From Halanaerobiales bacterium (lineage in GTDB: Bacteria; Bacillota; Halanaerobiia; Halanaerobiales; Halanaerobiaceae), in NCBI GenBank assembly GCA_016278485.1, contig JADQBT010000013.1:1-64000 (forward strand): a DNA stretch of 64,000 nt, written 5' to 3'. The notes under the pieces are model-generated. The model worked only from the letters and a program-made list of their open reading frames with translations. It did not search any database and was not told where the DNA came from. Shown here in pieces: positions 7,115-64,000 of this stretch (position 1 is its first letter; every line of letters begins with the position of its first letter). A program made the translations under genes and the position numbers.

Positions 7115-7192
7115 AATAATCTCCTCCTTGTCTACAGTAAGCTGTTGCTATTATTATAGTTAATTCTCTCTGCTGATGCAAATTTTGCTATT

Positions 7193-9664
7193 TTAATTAT
7201 CATAATTAGGTTTAACATCAATTCTACGTAACATGTTTGCGTTTGTTATGACACTAATTGAACTTGTGGCCATTGCTATTTCAGCAATAACTGGGTGCAG
7301 TAATCCTAATATTGCAAATGGAATTGCTACAATATTATAGATAAAAGCCCAGAATAAATTCTGTCTTATCTTCCTGAAAGTAGCTCGGGAGAGTTTGACT
7401 GCTGTAATAACTGCTGATAAATCTCCCCTGACCAAGGTAATATCTGATGATTCTATCGCTATATCTGTTCCTGTACCAATTGCTATCCCAACATTAGCCT
7501 GAGTTAATGCAGGTGCATCATTAATACCATCTCCAACCATAGCAATGATACCAAATTCATCCTGTAATTTCATTACTTCATCTACTTTTCCATCCGGTAA
7601 AACCTCTGCCACAACATGGTCAATACCAACCTCTTTGGCAATAGCTTTAGCGGTCCGTTCATTATCTCCCGTAATCATAGCTGTTTCTAATCCCAACTCT
7701 TTTAATTCTCTGATAGCATGCACTGAATCCTCTTTTAATGCATCAGCCACAGCAACTATGCCTAATAATTTTTCTTCAGTTGCTACCAGCATGGCCGTTT
7801 TAGCTTCTTTCTCCAAACGAATCATATCATCTTCAAGCTCACTTGGATCAATACCAGCTTCATTCATTAATCTACGACTACCCACTAAAATATTTTTACC
7901 ATCTATGGAAGCTTTAACTCCCTTACCGGTCACTGCACCAAAGTCTTTTACCTGCTTTATTTCAAGACCCCTATCTTTAGCATCATTGACTATTGACACT
8001 CCCAAGGGATGTTCAGAACCAGATTCAACACTAGCTGCTAACTGGAGAAGTTCTTCTTCGCTACTACCATTAACTGTAACCAGATCTGTAACTTCAGGTT
8101 TACCTTTGGTTATTGTACCTGTCTTATCAAAAACAATTGTATGGACATCTTTCATGGTCTGAATTGCTTCACCTTTACGTATCAAGACACCATTTTCCGC
8201 ACCGATTCCACTACCAACCATTAATGCTGTCGGTGTAGCAAGACCCAGTGCACAAGGACAAGCAATTACTAAGACTGCAATGGTAGCAAAAATAGCCAAG
8301 GTAAATGTACCAAGGGTTGGATTAACCCAAGGCAAGAAACTCTGTGCCCAGATACCTACACTTCGAAACTCCTCCGGGAAGACCAACCATAAGATAAAAG
8401 TAGTTGCTGCAATTATCAGAACTGCTGGAACAAAAATACTGGTTATCCTGTCAGCAAACTCCTGAATAGGAACTTTGGTTCCCTGTGCTTCCTCTACCAT
8501 CTTGACAACCTGTGCTAAAAATGTATCTTTACCTACTTTAGTAGCTTTTACTTTTATTAAACCATTTTGATTAACTGTTGCTCCTATAACTTCATCACCA
8601 ACAGTTCTTTCAACAGGCATTGATTCTCCTGTTGCCATAGATTCATCAACTGTTGATTTACCTTCAACAATCTCACCATCTGTCGGAATCTTTTCACCAG
8701 GTTTGATCAACATCACATCACCAGGTTGAACCTCATCAATTGAAACTTCTTTTTCTTCACCATCAACGATTACTGTTGCCGTTTTGGCACCTAACTCTAG
8801 TAGTTTTTTAATCGCCTGTGAAGCGCGGTCCTTAGCAGTCTCTTCAATATATCTACCTGTTAAATGAAATGCCATAATCATTGCTGATACGCCAGCATAG
8901 TTTGCTATCGGTGTAAAAAACACGGCAGGCCCTGTCAGAAAAGCTGCCCCAGTACCAATTGCTATCAAGACATCCATATTCGCACTACCATGACTTACCG
9001 CCCGATAGGCTGTCACAAAGGTCCTTCTACCATAAACAAACAATGGTGGAATAGCAAGTAAAACCATACCAAGATTAAAGATCGTCATATTGGGCCAAGC
9101 AATCCCAAATACCATTTCCGGAATCATCCATAATATAATAGGTATTGTAAAAAGCCAGGTACCCCACATTTTACTTTTGGCTTCTGCAACTTTCTTTAAA
9201 TCATTATCCTTTTCCGCTTCAGTCTTTTCATCACCTTCAAAACCGATGACTTCATAACCTGTATTTTTTACTATTTCTTCAAAATCTTTTCGGTCTAGAA
9301 CCGTTGGATCATACTCAACAGTACCTTTTTCAGAAGCTATATTTACATTAGCTTGATAAACACCGTCTGTTTTATTTAAAGCTTTTTCTACTGCTGCCGA
9401 ACAGCTAGCACATGTCATGCCGCCGATTTTTATTATGATCTTTTCTCTTTCATCTTTTACATCATAGCCTGTTCCTCGTACGACTTCTGCTAATTTTTCC
9501 TCATCCGTTTCGGAAGGATTAAATTCTACATAAGCTTTTTCTGCTGCAAAATTAACTTGAGCTTGTTGCACACCTTTAGCTTTATTTAAGGCTTTTTCAA
9601 CAGTTTGTGCACAACTTGCACAACTCATTCCTTCTAACTGCAATGTTACTTTTTTATTTTCCAT
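7193..9664 (-). CDS. copA: Copper-exporting P1B-type ATPase
   Basis: An 823-residue P-type ATPase pumping Cu(I) out of the cytoplasm. Two N-terminal HMA metal-binding domains have GMSCASC (about residue 13) and GMTCASC (about 81). The transmembrane metal site is CPC (near 468), the phosphorylated aspartate is in DKTGT (near 511), and the hinge motif GDGINDAP is near 711. ACGGAGGTG stands before the ATG. The promoter has TTGACA-N17-TATATT followed by a CsoR dyad at 9706-9722. The chaperone gene copZ is elsewhere in the window (21553-21762). Confidence 0.95.
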
Positions 9665-50118: not shown

Positions 50119-50604
50119 TTAATAGTTATTTTGAATTATTGTAGCCTGGTTATTATTGCCTCTCTGATAGATACCGGACCAGTTATCAGAACCAACCTGT
50201 TGAATATCAGCAGAATTTCCATTGCCATGCTGAGAAATACCAGCCCAATTATTATTCCCTATCTGATCAACATAGGCAAAATTACTATTACCATGTTGCT
50301 CAATCCCAGACCAATTATTACTGCCCTCTTGCTTTTGAGTAGCTGTATTATTGTTACCTTCTTGAAAGATAAATGCTTTGTTATCGGCACCCGCCTGTGA
50401 TTGATTAGAAATATTTCCTTCACCATCTTGATAAGTATAAATTTTATTTTCTTCGTTTTCAGCAGACTCCTCTGTAAAAAAGCCTTCTATCTGCTCTGTG
50501 AATTCTTCCCGAACAAATGATTCGGCTAACACCATTTGTCCATTCCCCAAGCTTATCAATCCAAACAAAAGTACTAATAAAATCAATAAATAATTTTTTT
50601 TCAC
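50119..50604 (-). CDS. Curlin-repeat protein (CsgA-like) under c-di-GMP riboswitches
   Basis: About 161 residues. I start at the GTG at 50604 with AAGGAGG 8 bases upstream; the ATG at 50643 lies inside the riboswitch. A signal peptide (LLILLVLLFGLISLGNGQMVLA) precedes an acidic linker and four clean 22-residue repeats (for example GNNNWAGISQHGNGNSADIQQV) with the curlin pattern of G-x-x-N-x-A and Q at fixed spacing. Curlins are secreted through CsgG and polymerise to beta-helical amyloid. It is alone in its transcript, with its own promoter and terminator, unlike the other curlins. Confidence 0.9.
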   Translation of the reverse strand: MKKNYLLILLVLLFGLISLGNGQMVLAESFVREEFTEQIEGFFTEESAENEENKIYTYQDGEGNISNQSQAGADNKAFIFQEGNNNTATQKQEGSNNWSGIEQHGNSNFAYVDQIGNNNWAGISQHGNGNSADIQQVGSDNWSGIYQRGNNNQATIIQNNY

Positions 50605-50619
50605 TTTTTGTTCCTCCTT

Positions 50620-50690
50620 GGTAACCCGGCCACCTGATATCATTCAGGCCCGTGGCTTTGTGTCACCCACCTCACGGTGGGATTACCCTT
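50620..50690 (-). promoter_or_regulatory. c-di-GMP-I (GEMM-I) riboswitch, downstream copy
   Basis: Minus strand: P1 GGTAA/TTACC, P2 CCCACC-GTGA-GGTGGG with a GNRA tetraloop, then the core GTGACACAAAGCCACGGG and the P3 return GGTGGCCGGGTTACC, as in GEMM-I aptamers (GACGCAAAGCC core, GNRA loop docking in P3). The 3' strand of P1 ends right at AAGGAGG, so ligand binding could change ribosome access. Confidence 0.88.
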
Positions 50691-50759
50691 TTCCAGAGGG
50701 AAAAATCAAAGCTTGTCCTTTTTCTCAAAAGAATAGCTATTGACTATATCTGTTCCCTT

Positions 50760-50849
50760 CTTCGGCAGCTAGGCCATCATGGTTAACCATCTGTTAACCT
50801 TAGATGTTTTGCTTTGCATACTCTCTTTTTCAAAAGATTTAGCCTTTTT
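50760..50849 (-). promoter_or_regulatory. c-di-GMP-I (GEMM-I) riboswitch, upstream copy
   Basis: Minus strand: AAAGGCTAAA, P2 TCTTTT-GAAA-AAGAGA with a GNRA loop, core GTATGCAAAGC, then ACATCTAAGG and a return ending CTGCCGAA. Order, loop and core follow GEMM-I, in the AT-rich clostridial style; the P1 pairing is weaker than in the downstream copy. Confidence 0.72.
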
Positions 50850-50876
50850 CGGGAAAGAAACGTTTCATTTGTATTT

Positions 50877-50905
50877 ATTATAACATTCAAATGACAAAAT
50901 GGCAA
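50877..50905 (-). promoter_or_regulatory. Promoter of riboswitch-curlin transcript
   Basis: Minus-strand -35 TTGCCA (50900-50905) and -10 TATAAT (50877-50882), 17 bases apart, giving a leader of about 265 bases. GAAACGTTTC (50857-50866), a perfect palindrome slightly shorter than a CcpA cre site, lies just downstream of the -10. Confidence 0.75.
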
Positions 50906-50935
50906 ATAATTACAAAGAATAATTTAAAGTATACT

Positions 50936-50969
50936 AAAAAAGGTTATCTCACCTCACCAAGATAACCTT
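50936..50969 (-). terminator. Terminator after csgG
   Basis: AAGGTTATCT/AGATAACCTT, 10-base stem and 10-base loop, six T on the minus strand; separates csgG from the riboswitch-curlin unit. Confidence 0.88.
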
Positions 50970-51013
50970 AATTGCTCAATCAAAACACAACAATCAATAG
51001 TCAAAATCTATTT

Positions 51014-51802
51014 TTAAAACAGATTACTTTCATACAACATATATACAGATTCTTCTAATAAGGTTCGGACAACCAGGTTTATTACTTCCTGCATACCTTT
51101 CCCACTTTCAAATTCTACAATATTATCCCCCATAAAGGAAAAGATTTGTAGGCCTACTCTTTCTCCTGTAATTTCTTTTTTCAAACTTTTAGACCATACA
51201 ACTTCCCCGGTAGTTGTATCAGTTAGTCTTAGATCAACAGCACACGAAGCCCTAGCAATTTTTTTCGATCCACCTTTACCTGCAATCTTTAGTCCAATAC
51301 CTCCGGTATCTTTATCAACCTGATATTCAGTGATAGCACCTGACATAATATAATCGGGACCACTCATTTTACCGATTTTCGGCCCTTCTCCCGAAACAAA
51401 CCTATCCTGTGCCTGCAAATTTTGCTCATTTATGAAATTACTAAAATTTACTCTATCTAGAACAATAAACTGTCGAGATCTCAAAAGGGCGGTAATCATC
51501 ATGTCTGTAGCACCCTGGGTCACAACAGAAGAGTTAATATTGTCTTTCCTCTGTCCCGTTTTATCAGTTATACTATATACCGCAATTTTGATTTTTTCTG
51601 CCGGTTCGGGTAGGGCAGCTAGTAACTGAGTTGCCGAGGTAACATTAGCTTTTGAAGATAATATATCTTCTGAAGAATTCAATATTTCCTCCATCAGTTT
51701 ATCGATCTTAACTTCTTCCTGCTCTTCGGCAGCCACTATTCCAGTGGCCATCAATAATACTATAAGTAAAATCACAGTAGTTTTTATTACTTTTTCCACC
51801 AT
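51014..51802 (-). CDS. csgG: Curli secretion pore CsgG
   Basis: A 262-residue CsgG-family protein forming the nonameric outer-membrane channel for curlins. Matches to the family: PAEKIKIAVYSITDKTGQRK, TQGATDMMITALLRSRQFIVLDR, the NFINEQNLQAQ helix, PDYIMSGAITEYQ with the glycine-rich hairpin, and AVDLRLTDTTTGEVVWSKS. Remarkably the signal peptide (VILLIVLLMATGIVAAEE) has no lipobox cysteine, whereas enterobacterial CsgG is a lipoprotein. It follows csgF by 76 bases and ends before a terminator. Confidence 0.9.
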   Translation of the reverse strand: MVEKVIKTTVILLIVLLMATGIVAAEEQEEVKIDKLMEEILNSSEDILSSKANVTSATQLLAALPEPAEKIKIAVYSITDKTGQRKDNINSSVVTQGATDMMITALLRSRQFIVLDRVNFSNFINEQNLQAQDRFVSGEGPKIGKMSGPDYIMSGAITEYQVDKDTGGIGLKIAGKGGSKKIARASCAVDLRLTDTTTGEVVWSKSLKKEITGERVGLQIFSFMGDNIVEFESGKGMQEVINLVVRTLLEESVYMLYESNLF

Positions 51803-51878
51803 AAGTCCTCCTAATTAACAATCTTATTGATTGTTTAAATTTAATTCTCATTATATTTTCAATCACAAACAATTAAAT

Positions 51879-52289
51879 TTAATACGGAATATATTCACCT
51901 GGAGCATAAGTAATAATTGTACTCTCTCCGGTCTCAGTATTATAAATATCTACAATAACTTCTCCAGTATCAGGATCCTCAGCAACTTTCACCTCTAAAT
52001 TTCCTGCTTCAAATTCCCCATATGCTTCCGAATCACCAGTAATCATATCTACAATTCTTCTCTGAATAGCGCTATATAATCTACGCTCAAGTCCCTCCTT
52101 AAAACGTTCAAGGGGATCTTCTTCCTCCTCAGTAAGATCATCCTGAGTCTGGGCAACATTTATTGCAACCTGAGTAGCATTAGGGTTATTAAAAACCTCA
52201 AAATCCCAGCTCATGGTATAATTAGCCGCTGTAACCGTGCTAGCTAGAGTAAAGATCATGATTATTACTAATGTAATTATTTTTTTCAT
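51879..52289 (-). CDS. csgF: Curli assembly factor CsgF
   Basis: A 136-residue exported protein. After the signal peptide the mature start has NYTMSWDFEVFNNPNA and INVAQTQDDL, the counterpart of the CsgF segment that plugs the CsgG channel (NPN and AQ..Q conserved). A helix (LERFKEGLERRLYSAIQRRIV) and the strands VIVDIYNTETGESTIITY match the rest of CsgF. It caps CsgG at the cell surface and helps nucleate fibres. Gene order csgF-csgG supports the call. Confidence 0.85.
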   Translation of the reverse strand: MKKIITLVIIMIFTLASTVTAANYTMSWDFEVFNNPNATQVAINVAQTQDDLTEEEEDPLERFKEGLERRLYSAIQRRIVDMITGDSEAYGEFEAGNLEVKVAEDPDTGEVIVDIYNTETGESTIITYAPGEYIPY

Positions 52290-52308
52290 TTAAACATAAC
52301 CTCCCTTT

Positions 52309-52830
52309 TTAGAAATTCAATTGAATACCAGTTGCTAGATAAAGATCACTATCTTCATCTTCAAAATCATCGTCTTCATTTATATATTTTGCCTCCGCAA
52401 AAAAGCTTTCCCAGATGTCAACACCAGCAAATACCTGATAATTTACCTGGCCAACTCCAACTCCGCCTCCTAAATAGGGAGCAACCATACTTCCTGGCAG
52501 AGGGGCTACTTTCAAAGAAAGAAATCCTGAAAATTCCTTCTGATCATTCAAATATATACCTTCAGTTACAAATTTAACCTTCTGTGATTCCGGAAAAGGA
52601 ATTTCTACTCTACCTCCCAGATTAACCCCACCGTCTTCTGCTCCGAAATTGGTCGCAAACAAACCAACTTTGTTGTAATAAATCTGATTCTGTTTCTCTG
52701 TAAGTTCCCGTGAAGCCTTGATTAACTCCAGCCTCTCCTTCTCCAGAACTTCTTCTGCGAATGAAGTAAGGGTAAAGCAAAGAGTAAAAACTAATAAAAC
52801 TCCCAGTACAATACTTATTTTCCCTCTCAT
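52309..52830 (-). CDS. Probable outer-membrane beta-barrel protein in curli locus
   Basis: About 173 residues, start at the ATG at 52830 (GGAAAGGAG upstream; 15 more open codons are not used). A signal peptide (ISIVLGVLLVFTLCFTLTSFA) is followed by alternating strands such as NLGGRVEIPFPE, GFLSLKVAP, YLGGGVGVGQVNYQVFAGVDIW and a C-terminal LYLATGIQLNF ending in phenylalanine, the signature that targets barrels to the outer membrane. It resembles YfaZ/OmpW-like small barrels. It lies where csgE would be expected but does not look like CsgE. Confidence 0.6.
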   Translation of the reverse strand: MRGKISIVLGVLLVFTLCFTLTSFAEEVLEKERLELIKASRELTEKQNQIYYNKVGLFATNFGAEDGGVNLGGRVEIPFPESQKVKFVTEGIYLNDQKEFSGFLSLKVAPLPGSMVAPYLGGGVGVGQVNYQVFAGVDIWESFFAEAKYINEDDDFEDEDSDLYLATGIQLNF

Positions 52831-52915
52831 ATTAACTCTCCTTTCCAAACTTTTATTGGATAATAAATAACACACGATTATCTTTTATTAACAAATTTTG
52901 ATTTAATGATTAATT

Positions 52916-53293
52916 CTACTGTTCTTCATTTTCTTCAGGCTCAGCTGTTTTCTGTTTAACGATTACTTTATTATTGCTTCCCTTTTGAGAAATATGGGTC
53001 TGATTGGACTCACCAGATTGGCTTAAAAACAAATTGCTCAAATATCCACTTTGATATATAAAACTATCATTATTAATACCGTGTAGTAATTGGATCACAG
53101 TATTATCATGACCTTCCTGAAATATTATTGATTTAACTTCATTATTAGCTATATACTGCATAATAATGTTACCGTCCTCATCAAAAGTAATCTCGAACTG
53201 AATATTGTTTTTTTCCTCATATGATAAAACAGTACTGGAATATATAGCTATAAAAATCAAGGCCAAAAAAAGAACTATTTTTATGTAACTCAT
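52916..53293 (-). CDS. Short curlin-like protein (CsgB-like minor subunit)
   Basis: A 125-residue exported protein: signal peptide (IKIVLFLALIFIAIYSSTVLS), a strand-rich lead, then about three degenerate curlin repeats (IIFQEGHDNTVIQLLHG, SFIYQSGYLSNLFLSQSG, QTHISQKGSNNKVIVKQ). Its small repeat number, basic last repeat and charged tail (AEPEENEEQ) resemble the nucleator CsgB more than a main subunit. It lies between a curlin gene and the barrel gene in the same direction. Confidence 0.7.
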   Translation of the reverse strand: MSYIKIVLFLALIFIAIYSSTVLSYEEKNNIQFEITFDEDGNIIMQYIANNEVKSIIFQEGHDNTVIQLLHGINNDSFIYQSGYLSNLFLSQSGESNQTHISQKGSNNKVIVKQKTAEPEENEEQ

Positions 53294-53363
53294 TTCAGCC
53301 TCCCTTTGAATTATCTCCTTTAGATTTTCAAGGATTCCTATTCATACTAATTTTTAACAAATA

Positions 53364-53927
53364 TTAAAACATTTGTATTTCTACAGCAGTGTCATTTCCA
53401 TACTGGTAAATACCGATATTTTTATTAGAACCTATTTGGAGAATATTTGCTATATTATTATTATTTATTTGTGTAATAGATGCTTCATTATTATAACCAA
53501 ATTGTTCTATACCCGCCCAATTATTATCCCCATTTTGATTTATAGCAGCATCATTGTTATAACAAATAAAATTATAAAATATTCCACTATAATCAGATTG
53601 CAAGATATTTGCAAGATTAGCCTGACCTTTTTGTTCTATAGAAACATCATTACTATCACCAATTTGCTCAATATAAGAGTAATTATCCTGATTATATTGT
53701 CCTATATTAGCTATATTCTCATTACCATACTGGTAAATATAGGCTTGGTTAGATTCAGTATCATTCAAACCCTGCTCAATGTAAACTTCATTATCAGTAC
53801 CATCTTGCACAGCCTTGGCAATTTGCTGATAACCATTTTGCTTTATTTCAAGCTCATTACCAACTGCCAATACCATACCTGAGAAACATAAAAGCAATAT
53901 TCCTATTAAAAAAAATACTTTTTTCAT
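53364..53927 (-). CDS. Curlin-repeat protein
   Basis: A 187-residue exported protein with about seven curlin-type repeats of about 22 residues (for example NIGQYNQDNYSYIEQIGDSNDV and NWAGIEQFGYNNEASITQINNN). Signal peptide FFLIGILLLCFSGMVLA. Asn, Gln, Ile and Tyr rich, as expected of an amyloid core. It has one cysteine inside an irregular repeat (YNFICYNND). It is 70 bases before the csgB-like gene. Confidence 0.88.
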   Translation of the reverse strand: MKKVFFLIGILLLCFSGMVLAVGNELEIKQNGYQQIAKAVQDGTDNEVYIEQGLNDTESNQAYIYQYGNENIANIGQYNQDNYSYIEQIGDSNDVSIEQKGQANLANILQSDYSGIFYNFICYNNDAAINQNGDNNWAGIEQFGYNNEASITQINNNNIANILQIGSNKNIGIYQYGNDTAVEIQMF

Positions 53928-54030
53928 AATTATTCATTCCTTTTTTATTCTTCTCTGGTTAGTCCTTCTTTTGTTTAGCCATATCAATCAACGCAGTTCA
54001 TAAATCTTAAAACAGTTAACCTATATGGGT

Positions 54031-54052
54031 GGGCAGTCTGTACAGACTGCCC
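54031..54052. repeat. Perfect 22-base palindrome between curlin genes
   Basis: GGGCAGTCTGTACAGACTGCCC has no loop bases and is the only GC-rich element in the gap. It is followed by T-rich sequence on plus but not on minus, so it is not a normal terminator for the minus-strand genes. It may be an operator, a processing site or an attenuator. Confidence 0.6.
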
Positions 54053-54128
54053 TGTTATTTTCTTAGTCATTTTTTCTTAGTCATCTAATTTTTTATTAAT
54101 GAGCCAAACTTAATTTTTCAACTAATTA

Positions 54129-55343
54129 CTACTGTTGAAAGACTTCTGCAGTATTACTATTACCATTTTGGGTAATAATAGCACTATGGTCAGAACCACC
54201 AAACTGATAGAGTAATGCTTGATTATTCTCGCCATCCTGCCAGACTACACCGAAATCATCTTGGCCCTGACGCAAACCTATTTCGTTGCTAATTCCTTCC
54301 TGGTAACTTAGGAATACTGCTCCATTATACTGTTTGGCAGACTTGTTTGCATTAAATGTAAGATCTCCAGAAGCTTCATCTACACCATTCACATAGTTAT
54401 CATTACCATTTTGAATAGTAATAAATACATTATCATCATTATACTGTTTAACCTTACTATTATTATTATCCCCAAATTGGCCAATACCAGCTATGTTATT
54501 ATTACCTTCTTGATAAACATAGGCAGTATTATTATTACCCTTTCCTGCAAATGGAGGGAAATTATTAGGGAAACCTGGAATAGCAAAGTTTGGTAATCCA
54601 TCTAAACCCTGTAACACATATATTTCGTTATGGTTTCCTGCTGCTTCACCGGTTGCATTGTTTCCATAACCATATTGCCATATGAGACTGCTATTTGCAA
54701 AACCAGTTAATGCTTGTGTAGCATTATTTTCGTCTCCCACCTGAGAAATATCTATATCACCCTGATAAAATAAGGAATCATTACCCCAATAACCATGATT
54801 GAAACCATTTATATCCTGAGTAGCTACATTCTCATCACCCTCCTGATATATATATGCATCATTAGTTCCTCCTCCATTCATAATTTGTTGGGCGAAATTA
54901 TCAAAACCTATCTGTTCGGCATAAAGTGATTCAGTATAACCACTATCAATATTCTGATGTATTACGTTATTATCTCCATATTGATTAGCAGTTACATTCC
55001 CATTATTCGCATTTACATCCTGGAAAATTTTATTGTAATTTCCTAATTGAAAAGCCGTAGCAGAATTAACAATTGTCCATCCAGGACCTGATCCTAAATA
55101 ATGCTGATAAATTTCTACTTGATTTTCATCTCCATCTTGATCAACATCAGCATCTTGATTAACCTTGGGATCAGCATTTTCTTGAGTAACATCAGTATTA
55201 TTGTCGTCACCAGTCTGGTTAACTACGGCAGTTTGATTATCACCTTCCTGATCAACTACTGCATCATTTCCGGCAGCAAAGGCCATCATCGACATACCAA
55301 CAATTAAAGTAATAACTAAAGTAACAAAAAACAATTTTTTCAT
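54129..55343 (-). CDS. Large curlin-repeat protein
   Basis: About 404 residues, start at the ATG at 55343 with AAGGAG 9 bases upstream (the frame opens 16 codons earlier in the structured leader). Signal peptide LFFVTLVITLIVGMSMMAFA, then about 15 curlin-like repeats, many irregular, with acidic insertions (NADPKVNQDADVDQDG) and a Pro/Phe-rich interruption (FAIPGFPNNFPPFAGKG) near residue 255. It ends in the regular repeat SAIITQNGNSNTAEVFQQ. The length is over twice that of E. coli CsgA and suggests a long beta-solenoid subunit. Confidence 0.88.
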   Translation of the reverse strand: MKKLFFVTLVITLIVGMSMMAFAAGNDAVVDQEGDNQTAVVNQTGDDNNTDVTQENADPKVNQDADVDQDGDENQVEIYQHYLGSGPGWTIVNSATAFQLGNYNKIFQDVNANNGNVTANQYGDNNVIHQNIDSGYTESLYAEQIGFDNFAQQIMNGGGTNDAYIYQEGDENVATQDINGFNHGYWGNDSLFYQGDIDISQVGDENNATQALTGFANSSLIWQYGYGNNATGEAAGNHNEIYVLQGLDGLPNFAIPGFPNNFPPFAGKGNNNTAYVYQEGNNNIAGIGQFGDNNNSKVKQYNDDNVFITIQNGNDNYVNGVDEASGDLTFNANKSAKQYNGAVFLSYQEGISNEIGLRQGQDDFGVVWQDGENNQALLYQFGGSDHSAIITQNGNSNTAEVFQQ

Positions 55344-55358
55344 TATTAAAAACTCCTT

Positions 55359-55454
55359 CTCTTTGGGTTTGTTTTCTCTGGTCGGTTTCACCCTGGCTCT
55401 CCACCCTTCCCTTGGTGACCAATTATAGAAAGGCGGGTCTTTACCTCCAAAGAG
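55359..55454 (-). promoter_or_regulatory. Structured GC-rich leader of the large curlin gene, class unknown
   Basis: On the minus strand an 8-base stem CTCTTTGG/CCAAAGAG closes a region containing GGAGGTAAAGACC, GGTCACC/GGGT..GACC pairings and GGAGAGCCAGGG, and its 3' strand abuts AAGGAG. This is the shape of a translational riboswitch. It faintly recalls a GEMM core but lacks the GACGCAAAGCC sequence. Confidence 0.4.
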
Positions 55455-55566
55455 TAAAAAATATTATTTCGATTCTTCTGACTTATCACACAATTTTTCT
55501 AACTTTCTGGTTCAGTGGTAGTCCATTCACCTCCCTCAAGAAAATTTTAACTAACTTTTAAATAGT

Positions 55567-56319
55567 CTAACTGGTTTGCGTAATAATCGCCGTATTATTA
55601 TTACCCTTTTGACTGATTCTGGATTTATTATTAATTCCTATTTGTTTTATTTCTCCAGTATTACTAGTCCCTATCTGCACAATCTCAGCCCAGTTACTTC
55701 CTTCCTGGCAAACATCGGCAGAGTTATCGTTCCCCTCCTGATTAACTAAAACATAATTGAAAACACCATTCTGTTCAGTAAAAATCCAATTTGAGATACC
55801 ATCCTGGGTCTGTATTGCCTCATTATCATTCCCATCCTGCCTGACAAACATACTGTTATCTATATTGTCCTGCAGCTGATAAGCCATATTTCTGTTGCCA
55901 TCCTGATATATATCAGCAATAAAACCATTATCATAACCTTCCTGGTTGGCATCATTACCATCACCATACTGCTGAATAATGAAATCAGAACCAGCGGTGG
56001 AAAAATTAATCTGACCCACAGTAGCTAAATTGTTATCCCCTTCCTGGGTGATATCAGCATAATTTTCTTCTTTCAGGTCACCGATTTGCTCTATAGTTGC
56101 ATAGTTTCCATAACCAATTTGATAGATAAAAGCATCATCATTGAGACCTTCCTGATGGATATAGCCATCATTTTTATTCCCTTTCTGGCTTATTAAAGCC
56201 TCCTGATTATCCTGATTCTGATAGATGAAAGCAGTATTTTCAGCCTGGGTAATGCCGGAAATATTCAAAATCATGATAGTTAGAAAAAAGAGCACACAAA
56301 TTTTACCTGTTCTTTTCAT
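55567..56319 (-). CDS. Curlin-repeat protein
   Basis: A 250-residue exported protein: signal peptide VLFFLTIMILNISGITQA, then about ten to eleven curlin repeats filling the rest (for example NDDAFIYQIGYGNYATIEQIGD, and the end GINNKSRISQKGNNNTAIITQTS). It is the most upstream curlin gene. AAAGAGG precedes the ATG. The leader holds an alternating ACATATATATATGT palindrome (around 56355) but no recognisable riboswitch. Confidence 0.88.
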   Translation of the reverse strand: MKRTGKICVLFFLTIMILNISGITQAENTAFIYQNQDNQEALISQKGNKNDGYIHQEGLNDDAFIYQIGYGNYATIEQIGDLKEENYADITQEGDNNLATVGQINFSTAGSDFIIQQYGDGNDANQEGYDNGFIADIYQDGNRNMAYQLQDNIDNSMFVRQDGNDNEAIQTQDGISNWIFTEQNGVFNYVLVNQEGNDNSADVCQEGSNWAEIVQIGTSNTGEIKQIGINNKSRISQKGNNNTAIITQTS

Positions 56320-56494
56320 AATTTTTTACCTCTTTTATATTTTTGTTTTTCTCATACACATATATATATGTACAAAAAAATTTACATATCACTATTGAAT
56401 TATATACCAAATAATGTAAAATGTTAATGATTTCAGAATGATTATGACATAATACAAAAAAATTAAATTATACTGAATTATAATCTATTTTATG

Positions 56495-56944
56495 TTAATA
56501 TGTAATATTACGTTTAATCTTGTAATATTTATAGTATATTTCTATTTCCTTATACTCACCAAAGGAATTTTCAATTCTTTCAATAACCTTTTTAACATCC
56601 TGATTTTTTATATTCATAAGCATAATAAGAAAGTTCTTATTACCCCATTTACTGACTATATCTCCACAGCGTAATCTTGTCTTTAAAATATTTTCCATCT
56701 TTTCTACAGCCGGAAAAACTTCCTTGACTATTTTATTTTTATCAGCTAAGCCAAGATGGATTAAATATATCGATATCCAGTATCTTTTAAATCTTCTTTT
56801 TTCCAGTTCATATAATATAAATAAGGTATCAAGATCACACATAAAAGCATATGCCTGCTCTAGATCATTTTTTAAGGTTCTATCCATTAAAACCTGATAA
56901 CTGTCCTCTTTTTTATCATATTTAATAATCTCACTTCTCTTCAT
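56495..56944 (-). CDS. Free-standing degenerate GGDEF-like protein
   Basis: A 149-residue soluble protein paralogous to the C-terminal third of the regulator at 57180-58349: FMCDLDTLFILYELEKRRF, then the region RLRCGDIVSKWGNKNFLIML, equivalent to the R-x-GD..ARxGGDEF hairpin of diguanylate cyclases but with GGDEF replaced by GNKNF. It ends with the same YYKYYKI motif. It cannot be a cyclase; a binding or partner role is likely. No good ribosome site stands before its ATG. Confidence 0.6.
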   Translation of the reverse strand: MKRSEIIKYDKKEDSYQVLMDRTLKNDLEQAYAFMCDLDTLFILYELEKRRFKRYWISIYLIHLGLADKNKIVKEVFPAVEKMENILKTRLRCGDIVSKWGNKNFLIMLMNIKNQDVKKVIERIENSFGEYKEIEIYYKYYKIKRNITY

Positions 56945-57179
56945 GCAGTTTTGATGATAACAAGATTATTAATTCTGATTACATTATACAATCAATTACT
57001 TTTCTTGTTAATGATTTTATAATGATTACCATTTTATTCTTGCGAATAATGTTTCAGATCAGTAATATTGATAGTTAAAAATAACTATAGAAGGTATTTA
57101 CTTCAAAGAAAAATAGATATATGAAAAACAAATAGTAACATAAAAGAATAATTACTAGTTAGCGCAATGGCCATGGCTA

Positions 57180-58349
57180 TTATATTTTATAATATCTATA
57201 CTCAATATCTACATCTTCAGAATTGAAGTAATCTCTGAAAAAAAAGCTTCTGACTCGTTCAAGTATTTTTTCAACATTTTCTTTTTCAATATTGATCAAA
57301 AGCAGTGTAAAAAGATCCTTGCTCCAGCGACAGACCACATCACCACACCTGAACTGAGATTTTAGAACTTCTACCATCTGTTTCCCGTATTCCTCTTGAG
57401 AAACTAAATGATTTTTATATTCAAACCCTAAATGAACCAATACCGCCGGAGGAACATCCCGTTGGCAACGCCTTTTTTCCAGATCATATATTAATGTGAA
57501 AGTATCAGGATCACAGACAAGAGCCCCTTCTACATCCTCAAAGGAACTAATTTCTTTAAATATTCTATTAGGGTCTTTAAACTTAATTATATTTATTCTT
57601 TCTCCCATTTTTTTCAAAGCCAAAGGTATTTGTAAATCATTTTCTCTGAATAAATTAACTGCCTCTTCATATTTAATTCGAGCCAGACCCTGATATCCTG
57701 AATTCAAAAGGGCAGTGACTGAACCCAAAATTAGTTCTTCTTCAAACTTAATAACTCCTAAAATATCTTCATAACATTTCCATAATTCCTCATTTAAATT
57801 TCTTTTTTGCATAAAATCATCTATTTTAATCATTGTTTCTATTAAAAGTTCTCTATAATAACTACGTGAGGACCATACCCATTCTTCAGTTCTGGTCTCC
57901 TCTAAATAATCCCCACGATATAAAGAAATAGCTTGTCTAAATATTTCTATTGCGCCAATTTTTCCCTTAGCGATTAAGCTAATAGTCTCTTGGCATATTT
58001 CTTTAAATCTTTCAGCATCAAGCCAGTAACTTGATTTTTTATTAAAAATATAGGCCTCACCAAGAGTATTTATATAAGGAACCAAGTTGTTTTCATTATT
58101 GCCATTTTTTAAAGTTTTCCGCAAACGGTAAATCAGAGCCGTCAAAGCCCCCTGGGGATCATCATTTTTTTCTAAATCTAAAATTTTAATAAGTCTTTCC
58201 CGGGAAACCGGCCTCCCACTATTAGTAAAAAGAAACTGAAATAGTATCCACTTTTTACTCAACCTATTGTTATCTGATATCAAATTTTTATCATTATTTT
58301 TAACCACAAAACGTCCTAAAGTATGTATTTCTAAAGGTTTTTCTTTCAT
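57180..58349 (-). CDS. SARP/BTAD-type transcriptional regulator with degenerate GGDEF domain
   Basis: A 389-residue protein in three parts: an OmpR-like winged helix (about 1-105; WILFQFLFTNSGRPVSRERL, ALIYRLRKTLKNG), a BTAD/TPR helical domain (about 110-255; DAERFKEICQETISLIAKG, YEEAVNLFRE), and a C-terminal domain (about 270-389) reading RCGDVVCRWSKDLFTLLLIN where active cyclases have GGDEF. The last part is shared with the 149-residue protein nearby. A transcription activator for the curli genes that senses c-di-GMP or a protein partner is my inference. AAAGGAG precedes the ATG. Confidence 0.75.
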   Translation of the reverse strand: MKEKPLEIHTLGRFVVKNNDKNLISDNNRLSKKWILFQFLFTNSGRPVSRERLIKILDLEKNDDPQGALTALIYRLRKTLKNGNNENNLVPYINTLGEAYIFNKKSSYWLDAERFKEICQETISLIAKGKIGAIEIFRQAISLYRGDYLEETRTEEWVWSSRSYYRELLIETMIKIDDFMQKRNLNEELWKCYEDILGVIKFEEELILGSVTALLNSGYQGLARIKYEEAVNLFRENDLQIPLALKKMGERINIIKFKDPNRIFKEISSFEDVEGALVCDPDTFTLIYDLEKRRCQRDVPPAVLVHLGFEYKNHLVSQEEYGKQMVEVLKSQFRCGDVVCRWSKDLFTLLLINIEKENVEKILERVRSFFFRDYFNSEDVDIEYRYYKI

Positions 58350-58627
58350 ATTTAAACTCCTTTAAAAAATTTTTATGCCACTGAAACTTAGTCCTATAGG
58401 ATGACCTAAAAATCAGACCCTGTGGGTTTTAACGGCAGTTAGCTATCGGATAAAAAAATATGCTATTAACTGCTTACTTTCCCCCATCTAGAGCCAGAAT
58501 GATTTCCCTCATAAAGGATAATTCTATATTTATATAATTACGTATAAATTTATAAACACCTTCTATTTATTTCCATTTCTGTTAAAAAACTATGCTCAAC
58601 ATCATAAATGCGATTATCTATTTTTTT

Positions 58628-59172
58628 AACAGAAATTTCGACGTTTCTGAGCCTAATAAAGTTTGGGTTTCAGATATTACATATCTGAAGGCTGGCTTTA
58701 CCTAGCTGTAAAAATAGTTCTTTATTCCCGAAAAGTCGTTGACTGGTCGATAAATAAAAGAATGACTAGACAGCTTGTTATAGATGCTTTGAATATGGGA
58801 ATTTAAAATAGAAAGCTAAGAAAATGTTTAATTTTTCATTCAGATAGAGGCAGTCAATATGTAAGCCATGATTTCCAAAAAGAACTATGGAAAAATGGTA
58901 TAAGGTCCTCAATGAGTCGCAAGGGAGACTGATGGGATAATGCAGTTACAGAAAGCTTCTTCTCTACATTAAAAACAGAATTAATTTATTAAAATAAGTA
59001 TAAAAGCAGAAAACAAGCAAGACAGGATTTTTTCCAATATATAGCTGTTTATTACAAAAAAATCAGAATGCATTCTAAATTAAATTATAAAAGTCCAGAA
59101 GACTACGAGAACGAGAGAAAACTATCAAAATATGTGTCTAATTTAATGGGGGAACCTCAGATAAGTTTTTAA
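58628..59172 (+). pseudogene. IS3-family transposase OrfB remnant
   Basis: The C-terminal DDE integrase part is readable but broken: [11 protein letters not shown] (first D), [13 protein letters not shown] (second D) and DNAVTESFFSTLKTEL (catalytic E), ending near [16 protein letters not shown]. There is one frameshift after GFT and three in-frame stops (after MGI, KGD and ELIY). The N-terminal part and OrfA are missing and no terminal repeats were found. It is an old insertion between the curli regulator and tRNA-Trp. 58350-58627 otherwise holds only the regulator leader, with an imperfect hairpin (GCAGTTA/TAACTGC). Confidence 0.85.
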
Positions 59173-59573: not shown

Positions 59574-59745
59574 AGAAGGCATTAATTATTGTGAGAGAAC
59601 TTTTATACAGAGCCAGTATTGAGCAAGTGAGCAAATGAAAAAGACGTATTCTGTTTGAGCGTAGCGAGTTTAATACGTCTCATGAGCTCACTTATACGAA
59701 ATACTTAGCGATGTATTCGTGATCGAACGATAATTAATGCCTTCT
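59574..59745. repeat. 172-base MITE-like long hairpin
   Basis: Outer arms 59574-59591 and 59728-59745 (AGAAGGCATTAATTATTG against CGATAATTAATGCCTTCT) plus inner arms AAGTGAGC/GCTCACTT and AGACGTATT/AATACGTCT make one long interrupted stem. There is no coding capacity. One arm supplies the last codons and stop of the diguanylate cyclase gene. Confidence 0.65.
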
Positions 59746-61701
59746 CTTTTTCTTCTCTCTCTTTTTATTCTTCTTCATTTCATACATCCTCCGGTCCGCT
59801 TCTTTAAAAACTTCATTTAAATCTTGCTCTTCCTCTTCTTTCACAGCAAAACCAACAGATAAGCTAACAGACTGCTCTTCACACTCACCCACGATCCTAT
59901 CTTTTATCCGGGCCACTACTTTTTCAGCGCATTCCGGCAGAATAACTGCAAACTCATCGCCACCAATCCTTGCCACAATATCTTCATCTCTAACCACCTT
60001 AGAAATAAGATTAGCTCCATCCTTAATATAGCGATCCCCTTCTTTATGGCCATAATTATCATTAACTTTCTTCAAACCATCCAGATCGCCGACAAGAATA
60101 CTTATGGGTAGCTTACGTGAACTATTCATACGTTCCATCTCATTTTCGAAATAGCGCCTATTATAGAGGCCAGTCATCTGATCATGGAAAGATAGATACT
60201 TAATTTTATTTTCTTCTTTTTTTCGCTTTGAAATATCATTATAAACCGCATAAACACCCAGTTGATCTTCATCTAGTTTAATAGGATAGCCTAAGACAGA
60301 AACAAATATTTTCTCACCATTCTTTTTCTGCCTGACTGTTTCAATTTGAAAAGATTCTCCTGCACTAATTCTCTCAGTGATGTTTTCTCCTTCTTCCCTT
60401 TTATCTTCCGGGATTATTAAATGATTAAGTCTTTTACCAACTATATTCTTTTCCTGATAGCCAAATAATTCCTCAAAACTACTATTAACTTTAATAATTA
60501 TTTCCTCTTTATCTAATAAAGCAATAGCTTCTGGTGAATTCTCAAATAACTGTTGGAAATAAGCCTTTTGTTCACGTAAATTATTTGAGATTTTTTTTGC
60601 AACATTAATATCTTCTAAAAACCCAAGAAATCTATTAGCAGATATTTGTACAGCATTTACACGTGCATATGAAATAGAGCCATCCTTTTTTAAAAACTGA
60701 TACTCTCTTTTAATTTCTCCAGTCTTTTTTAATTCTTCAAAATCAGCTGGAAATCTTTTCTCTCCCTGGGCAGAACGGAGATCAATAATATCCATCTCTA
60801 AAAGTTCATTTTCTGAATAACCAGTTATTGCATGAGCCTTTCCATTTGTACTTAAAATACTTCCATCTTCATCAAAAAGCATGATACCAATAGGTGCTTT
60901 ATTAATATAACTACGGAATTTCTTCTCACTCTCTTTAAGTTCAAGTTCTGCCTTTTTTCTTTTATCTATATCTTGATGGATGCCCACTAACCTTTTAGGA
61001 AAACTATTTTCATCAACTTGTATTATTTTACTTCTACTTAAAATCCACTTCCAGTAACCTTGCTTATGCCGAAAGCGTATTTCCCATTCCAGATAATGTT
61101 CATCACTACTAGGTTCAAAATCCTTTAAAGATTGCCAAACTATTTCACTATCATCTGGATGGACTAACTTTGTCCAGATGACTGGCTGTTTTTTTAACTC
61201 AGCAAGGTCATAACCCAACATTTTTGCATACTGATCATTAATATATTGCCTACTATTTTCAAGATCCCAATCCCACATTCCCTGATTTGAACCCCAGAAA
61301 GCAAGTTCAAAACGATTGTTTTCTAATTTCTGTTCAGTAGTATCCTCTACTTTGACGATCACACTATAATTATCATTATTTTGAAAAGGTGTAACCCGCA
61401 TTTTGAACCAATGCATCTCATCATCTGAATGGTGAAAAAACTCATAAACAAAATAATCTTTCTTGCCTGTCATAACATCTTTAATACCTAATTGCATTCT
61501 TAGATCATCTTCTGTACACCTTCCGAATAATTCAGTACAGTAATTAATGTAATCAGAACCAACTTTTAGTTTACTAAAAACATCTGCCGAATATTTAGTT
61601 AAGGTAAGTGGTGAATTCCTGTATTGAACAATTCCAAATTGATCTAAAATGAAAATATATTCTAAAAGTGAATCTAGTAACTGTCTATTTATATCTTTCA
61701 T
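59734..61701 (-). CDS. Multi-PAS diguanylate cyclase
   Basis: About 655 residues, starting at the ATG at 61701 (GGGAG upstream). Four PAS/PAC modules occupy about residues 1-490, with no membrane segment. The GGDEF domain follows: LSFHDQMTGLYNRRYFENEM, DLDGLKKVNDNYGHKEGD and the active site RIGGDEFAVILPE (near 584). The RDED motif five residues before GGDEF is a proper inhibitory I-site. It should make c-di-GMP in response to redox or small-molecule cues and could feed the nearby riboswitches. The last codons and stop lie in a hairpin repeat. Confidence 0.92.
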   Translation of the reverse strand: MKDINRQLLDSLLEYIFILDQFGIVQYRNSPLTLTKYSADVFSKLKVGSDYINYCTELFGRCTEDDLRMQLGIKDVMTGKKDYFVYEFFHHSDDEMHWFKMRVTPFQNNDNYSVIVKVEDTTEQKLENNRFELAFWGSNQGMWDWDLENSRQYINDQYAKMLGYDLAELKKQPVIWTKLVHPDDSEIVWQSLKDFEPSSDEHYLEWEIRFRHKQGYWKWILSRSKIIQVDENSFPKRLVGIHQDIDKRKKAELELKESEKKFRSYINKAPIGIMLFDEDGSILSTNGKAHAITGYSENELLEMDIIDLRSAQGEKRFPADFEELKKTGEIKREYQFLKKDGSISYARVNAVQISANRFLGFLEDINVAKKISNNLREQKAYFQQLFENSPEAIALLDKEEIIIKVNSSFEELFGYQEKNIVGKRLNHLIIPEDKREEGENITERISAGESFQIETVRQKKNGEKIFVSVLGYPIKLDEDQLGVYAVYNDISKRKKEENKIKYLSFHDQMTGLYNRRYFENEMERMNSSRKLPISILVGDLDGLKKVNDNYGHKEGDRYIKDGANLISKVVRDEDIVARIGGDEFAVILPECAEKVVARIKDRIVGECEEQSVSLSVGFAVKEEEEQDLNEVFKEADRRMYEMKKNKKREKKKRRH

Positions 61702-61804
61702 AATCACCACTCCCTATTTTATTGATTAGTAAATTACTTAATTTTACTTAAATATATAGGAATCATTCCTATTTGTCAACAGAAAACAGGAAAAATGTCC
61801 CCTT

Positions 61805-63898: not shown

Positions 63899-64000
63899 TG
63901 GTGGAGGTGGTGGGAGTCGAACCCACGTACTATATAGCTCACCCAGTAGTTTCTACGAGTGTAGTCTGTTATTTAATTTCACAACAGTAACTCCAACAGA
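63899..64000 (-). ncRNA. ssrA: tmRNA (SsrA), 3' part, cut by window edge
   Basis: The minus-strand 3' end reads GTGGGTTCGACTCCCACCACCTCCACCA-type tRNA-like T-arm and acceptor with encoded CCA at 63899-63901, preceded by pseudoknot-like sequence. This T-arm/acceptor is the hallmark of ssrA. The tag-coding part lies beyond the right edge. T-rich sequence after GGCC-TCTG-GGTC (about 63871-63882) may terminate it. Confidence 0.9.

Follow-up and report, generated by a model that had tools for sequence, protein, structure and literature searches.

The window analysed here, a 64,000-nucleotide stretch of contig JADQBT010000013.1 from a Halanaerobiales bacterium (assembly GCA_016278485.1), carries between positions 50119 and 56319 of its minus strand a curli-type (type VIII) secretion locus, in which the leaders of two curlin subunit genes contain aptamers of the cyclic di-guanosine monophosphate (c-di-GMP) riboswitch classes. 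The host genome is 2.86 Mb long, 96% complete and belongs to the same family as Halanaerobium. In the direction of transcription, the locus encodes curlins of 250, 404, 187 and 125 amino acids (aa), an outer-membrane barrel protein, CsgF, CsgG and a further curlin of 161 aa, with curlin lengths counted from the likely starts. The genes and RNA elements, identified computationally, are the following, in order of transcription:

55567-56319, minus strand: curlin-repeat protein, 250 aa (PF07012, E=4e-34).
55371-55457, minus strand: c-di-GMP-II-type aptamer, before the 404-aa curlin (RF03169, 43.5 bits, gathering score 40).
55353-55366, minus strand: CCAAAGAG and the Shine-Dalgarno (SD) sequence AAGGAG, alternative partner of the aptamer 5' strand at 55447-55457 (pairing analysis).
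54129-55343, minus strand: curlin-repeat protein, 404 aa, ATG at 55343, behind the c-di-GMP-II-type aptamer (PF07012, E=8e-29).
53364-53927, minus strand: curlin-repeat protein, 187 aa (PF07012, E=1e-25).
52916-53293, minus strand: short curlin-repeat protein, 125 aa (PF07012, E=4e-8).
52309-52830, minus strand: small outer-membrane beta-barrel protein, 173 aa, 8 strands, with a conserved N-terminal helix (AlphaFold pLDDT 85; fold match).
51879-52289, minus strand: csgF (PF10614, E=1.6e-10).
51014-51802, minus strand: csgG, secretion pore, without a lipobox cysteine (PF03783, E=9e-39).
50877-50905, minus strand: promoter-like TTGCCA-17-TATAAT, just before aptamer 1 (11 of 12 consensus matches).
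50761-50854, minus strand: c-di-GMP-I aptamer 1 (RF01051, 49.9 bits, gathering score 35).
50617-50697, minus strand: c-di-GMP-I aptamer 2, its 3' end abutting the SD site (RF01051, 58.3 bits, gathering score 35).
50119-50604, minus strand: curlin-repeat protein, 161 aa, GTG start at 50604, behind the tandem c-di-GMP-I aptamers (PF07012, E=3e-22; repeat lags 11/22/33).

The sequence-only reading had described a curli-type secretion locus, unusually rich in subunits, in a diderm Firmicute, and every gene it named was found, all on the minus strand, in a diderm relative of Halanaerobium; the subunit lengths it gave (161, 187, 250 and about 404 residues) match, and its short curlin has 125 aa. Pfam matches and gene context both bear this description out, with CsgG, CsgF and the curlins all scoring above the Pfam cut-offs. 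CsgG reaches 133 bits on PF03783 against a cut-off of 20.8, far above the 38 bits obtained with the LpoB profile, CsgF reaches 41.7 bits on PF10614 against 25.8, and PF07012 exceeds its cut-off in five window proteins. The sequence-only reading thus survives the profile comparison with generic lipoprotein families that it had named as a way to refute it. Profiles built from the CsgG and CsgF proteins of the class retrieved the solved E. coli CsgG at E=2e-30 and the solved CsgF at E=1.5e-4. The window CsgG is the sole PF03783 match of the host genome, and all curlin matches of the genome lie at the locus. We also considered HfaB as the identity of the pore protein, as the NCBIfam scores for the two are nearly equal (80 and 78 bits); CsgG is preferred because CsgF and curlins are present at the locus. 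Plasmid records searched with CsgG returned distant CsgG/HfaB proteins only. Omp85 was found in the host genome, in agreement with the outer membrane expected in Halanaerobiales, where an outer membrane with lipopolysaccharide is a trait of the order (PMC5007114).

The machinery differs from the E. coli version. CsgE (PF10627) was not found in the host genome, in a search that detected the E. coli control; the system, which had been proposed to be complete, is therefore not so in the E. coli sense. Moreover, no convincing lipobox is present in any of the 17 CsgG proteins of the class (16 lack one and the remaining protein has a Cys inside the hydrophobic stretch), nor in that of locus L097, which is described below. 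The argument that CsgG is not lipidated because LolA is missing was abandoned: the search of the host genome with PF03548 gave no match, but LolA homologues are reported for every Halanaerobiales genome analysed (PMC5007114).

In the curlins, conserved Q, N and G residues repeat with lags of 11, 22 and 33 positions (for the 404-aa curlin, 11 and 22-23), and these repeats suggest a possible amyloid matrix. The 404-aa protein was modelled with one strand per 11 residues at low confidence (pLDDT 55), and a structure search with this model gave no significant match. The repeat proteins might instead pass through CsgG yet, being acidic proteins of a halophile, build a surface coat or a layer of adhesins that is not amyloid. 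Such a coat would fit the strongly acidic subunits, with net charges of -10 to -43, the irregular repeats and long inserts of the 404-aa curlin, the low confidence of its model and the missing CsgE. We nevertheless regard it as improbable, given that the repeat period and Q/N/G pattern are curlin-like, that CsgF, which in E. coli acts in nucleation at the cell surface, is retained, and that acidity is usual among halophile proteins.

The small beta-barrel protein noted earlier corresponds to 52309-52830 and was modelled as an 8-stranded barrel, whose best solved match is the N-terminal domain of OprF (Z 16.1). It ends in a C-terminal Phe, and its N-terminal helix has the consensus LEERLELIxASQxL. 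The barrel shares the fold of the 8-stranded OmpA, OprF and OmpW barrels (Z 14-16 over 111-122 residues) but differs from them in its low identity of 12-17%, its conserved N-terminal helix and its strict linkage to csgF and csgG: it is kept in 16 of 16 csgF-bearing loci of the class, placed between the curlins and csgF or csgG. No Pfam match was obtained for the window barrel, PF13505 was matched in 2 of 15 relatives with a best E of 0.12, and a search of plasmid records with the barrel gave no match.

The predicted c-di-GMP riboswitches, which the sequence-only reading had not mentioned, are the more unusual part of the locus. Two class I aptamers stand in tandem before the 161-aa curlin, with a hairpin preceding a run of U between them, and a class II-type aptamer precedes the 404-aa curlin. 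The promoter-like site upstream of aptamer 1 rests on its consensus match, the number of such sites overall being not above shuffles. The host genome has four class I matches and one class II match in total, three of these five lying at the curli locus. The other two class I aptamers (L092 and L093, contig C35) precede PAS proteins with GGDEF-type domains, an arrangement as in feedback or cascade.

The class II aptamer could act on translation. The 5' strand of its closing stem (in the window, CUCUUUGG) can also pair with the CCAAAGAG-AAGGAG region, and the same complementarity between the 5' strand and the SD region is found at all ten curlin leaders preceded by a class II aptamer and at one fimbria-like leader (L074). 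Where one strand has changed, to UUAUUGG, GAUUG or UUUUUUGG, the change is matched in the partner strand, i.e. it is compensatory. In the alignment of this helix, 94% of cells are paired and slid registers perform worse, while the leaders' own pairs are better than swapped pairs (permutation 1.2e-4). Changes on both sides of the helix number 8 against 2.8 by shuffling, and none of 500 shuffles was as high, a figure made optimistic by the kinship of the aligned rows. The free window RNA folds with the SD closed, with a fold z-score of only -1.7; averaged over the leaders, SD openness is 0.24 for the free RNA and rises to 0.67 once pairing with the aptamer is forbidden. The alternative SD pairing and its covariation therefore predict a translational ON switch, in which c-di-GMP would turn on the synthesis of curlins. 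At the L074 leader (7158-9648, minus strand), the class II aptamer, which has this SD-hiding strand too, lies before the gene of a secreted protein that is not a curlin, and the gene after it has a weak WxL-interacting-protein match. For the tandem class I aptamers, local folding occludes the SD by pairing it with the U/C-rich sequence flanking aptamer 2.

To place the locus among relatives, we used two samples, 398 genomes across the phylum and 59 genomes of the class Halanaerobiia. CsgF occurs in the phylum sample only in the host genome (1 of 398), and in the class sample in 12 of 59 genomes, which belong to six genera in three families and are the same 12 that have curlin repeats. The loci of the class share a common build, with a BTAD regulator gene upstream in most, followed by curlins, barrel, CsgF and CsgG with minor changes of order, and some genomes hold two or three curli loci. 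In the CsgG tree, most of whose inner branches have weak support, loci of one genome group with those of another family (L077 with L083; L079 with L084), suggesting ancient duplication or exchange. A class II aptamer lies directly before curlins at ten sites (the window, L077, L079, L083, L084, L085, L087 and three in L089, where each successive curlin copy has its own), out of about 95 class II matches across the class.

Several further loci were noted in this survey. Class I aptamers were found near curlin or csgG genes at L079 3133-3738, L090 7146-7753 and L091 6623-6698 (+), and in L079 and L090 the gene directly behind the aptamer encodes a conserved secreted protein, about 173 aa long, that has no Pfam family. 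Group II intron matches lie upstream of one curli locus (L084 5422-5731). A high-GC contig of a metagenome-assembled genome (L097 353-7166), whose taxonomic label, Pseudomonadota, merits checking, has BTAD, curlins, barrel, CsgF and CsgG in the order of the window. This contig also has a weak class I aptamer match (35 bits, E=2e-5), located, as in the window, after csgG and before the last curlin.

A number of observations weigh against direct control of the curlin messages by c-di-GMP. At L079 the SD is not predicted to be hidden, and the helices of L079 and L077 are just marginally above shuffles. The case for a switch in the class I pair is weaker, because the duplex between flank and SD is no stronger than shuffles. 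No aptamer was detected at the curli genes of seven class loci (L072, L073, the curlins of L074, L075, L078, L080 and L088), so that the coupling of aptamer and curlin is common, not universal; a search at the curli genes of L076 also found none. The class II aptamer of the window scores 48.5 bits on RF01786, below the gathering score of 53.5, and in the alignment of the window with its relatives every one of these class II aptamers has GGUGAAACCG in place of the GGUGCAACCG of the Rfam consensus. Because of this replacement the ligand of the class II aptamers may differ, and a change in specificity is possible: the aptamers could have switched to another cyclic dinucleotide, making the locus answer a different signal. 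The same interpretation would account for the window and L077 copies passing only the Rfam GAG variant model (RF03169). We consider it unlikely, as five curlin-linked relatives score above the RF01786 gathering threshold, a PAS-GGDEF protein is encoded nearby, and the class I aptamers of the same locus retain the G at the position that we take to select c-di-GMP over cyclic GMP-AMP.

Weighing these data, we favor the reading that this locus of diderm Firmicutes serves the secretion of curli-type fibres and that c-di-GMP acts directly on its subunit mRNAs, and assign it a probability of roughly two in three. According to this model, Sec would export the curlins to the periplasm, from where they would exit via the pore formed by CsgG, with CsgF, and assemble into polymers at the cell surface, the clade-specific outer-membrane barrel presumably participating in the machine. 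When the ligand is absent, the 5'-side strand of the aptamer would pair with the SD region and block translation; upon c-di-GMP binding, the aptamer would close and the SD be freed, such that subunits would be made as the cell turns sessile. The alternative is an ordinary curli locus as in Halanaerobium, with aptamers that are OFF switches or transcriptional and a barrel that is a linked porin with no role in curli. In its favor, a hairpin lies before the run of U, c-di-GMP riboswitches are known in both directions, and the barrel fold is common; the covariation of the SD-region pairing, the opening of the SD once that pairing is forbidden to the aptamer, and the invariable presence of the barrel in the csgF-bearing loci argue against it and make it rather unlikely in our view.

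If c-di-GMP does act directly on the subunit mRNAs, signal and fibre would be linked by a far shorter path than in E. coli, through RNA sensors that sit in leaders about 120 to 300 bases long. A more far-reaching proposal, in which curli has been re-wired so that two c-di-GMP riboswitch classes gate curlin translation while the barrel and a non-lipidated CsgG replace CsgE and the lipid anchor, is tentative, and we would sooner doubt than accept it. The conserved barrel and the lipobox-less CsgG raise the question of whether curli pores generally need lipidation and CsgE, and the loci are a source of salt-adapted CsgG/CsgF pores and acidic curlins.

Upstream of the curlin genes, three proteins related to regulation or c-di-GMP signalling are encoded:

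57180-58349, minus strand: BTAD/winged-helix regulator with a degenerate GGDEF-like C-terminus (PF03704, E=4e-10; PF00486, E=7e-7).
56495-56944, minus strand: degenerate GGDEF-like protein, 149 aa, akin to the C-terminal region of the BTAD regulator (PF00990, E=5e-5, slightly below the cut-off).
59734-61710, minus strand: neighbouring PAS-GGDEF protein with an intact GGDEF motif (PF00990, E=5e-37).

The GGDEF motif is lost in the 149-aa protein; it is likewise missing from the C-terminal GGDEF-like domain of the regulators of the class, which retain the BTAD domain. The BTAD protein, whose relatives adjoin most curli loci of the class on the upstream side, is a candidate for the role of CsgD in regulating curli. 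The PAS-GGDEF protein is likely a diguanylate cyclase, and we infer a functional link between it and the curli locus. A remnant of an IS3-type transposase (58590-59145, plus strand), broken by stops and frame changes and with its family judged from the translation, sits between tRNA-Trp and the BTAD regulator. The 3' part of a tmRNA gene (63899-64000, minus strand) is cut off by the end of the window.

Compared with the csgBAC-csgDEFG system of E. coli and Salmonella, the window has CsgG, CsgF and curlin-repeat subunits in common, and differs in that CsgE was not found, CsgG has no lipobox, an outer-membrane barrel is added, the subunits number five and c-di-GMP aptamers stand on subunit leaders. 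Its linked regulator, as read from the neighbouring gene without a search for CsgC or CsgD, is a BTAD protein rather than CsgD. The biofilm signal c-di-GMP is the classic inducer of curli, but in E. coli its action lies upstream, via CsgD.

Curli in the Halanaerobium group have been in print since 2012 (PMC3521004; PMC4551309), so that the finding as first stated is not new, and the interpretation of the sequence-only reading is upheld in part. Dueholm et al. 2012 report one Firmicute with curli that lacks csgC, csgD and csgE (PMC3521004), which a review identifies as Halanaerobium (PMC4551309); the 2012 paper describes CsgE as missing from alphaproteobacterial systems as well (PMC3521004). 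The Firmicute system comes from the same group of organisms and combines curlins with CsgF and CsgG in the absence of csgE (PMC3521004; PMC4551309), while riboswitches, barrel and the missing lipobox, all features of the window, go unreported in the accessible main text (PMC3521004). Our literature search, with most subscription papers outside its scope, found besides PMC9481103 no work joining c-di-GMP-II with curlin, and none linking Halanaerobium with curli riboswitches; given that scope, these negatives are no proof of novelty. The 2022 survey in question describes tandem glycine/c-di-GMP-I riboswitches associated with genes related to curlin, CsgG among them (PMC9481103). A c-di-GMP riboswitch is thus tied to curlin-related genes there as in the window, but those tandems combine glycine with c-di-GMP-I, whereas the window has two c-di-GMP-I aptamers in tandem and a class II aptamer with an SD-hiding 5' strand, both on subunit genes.

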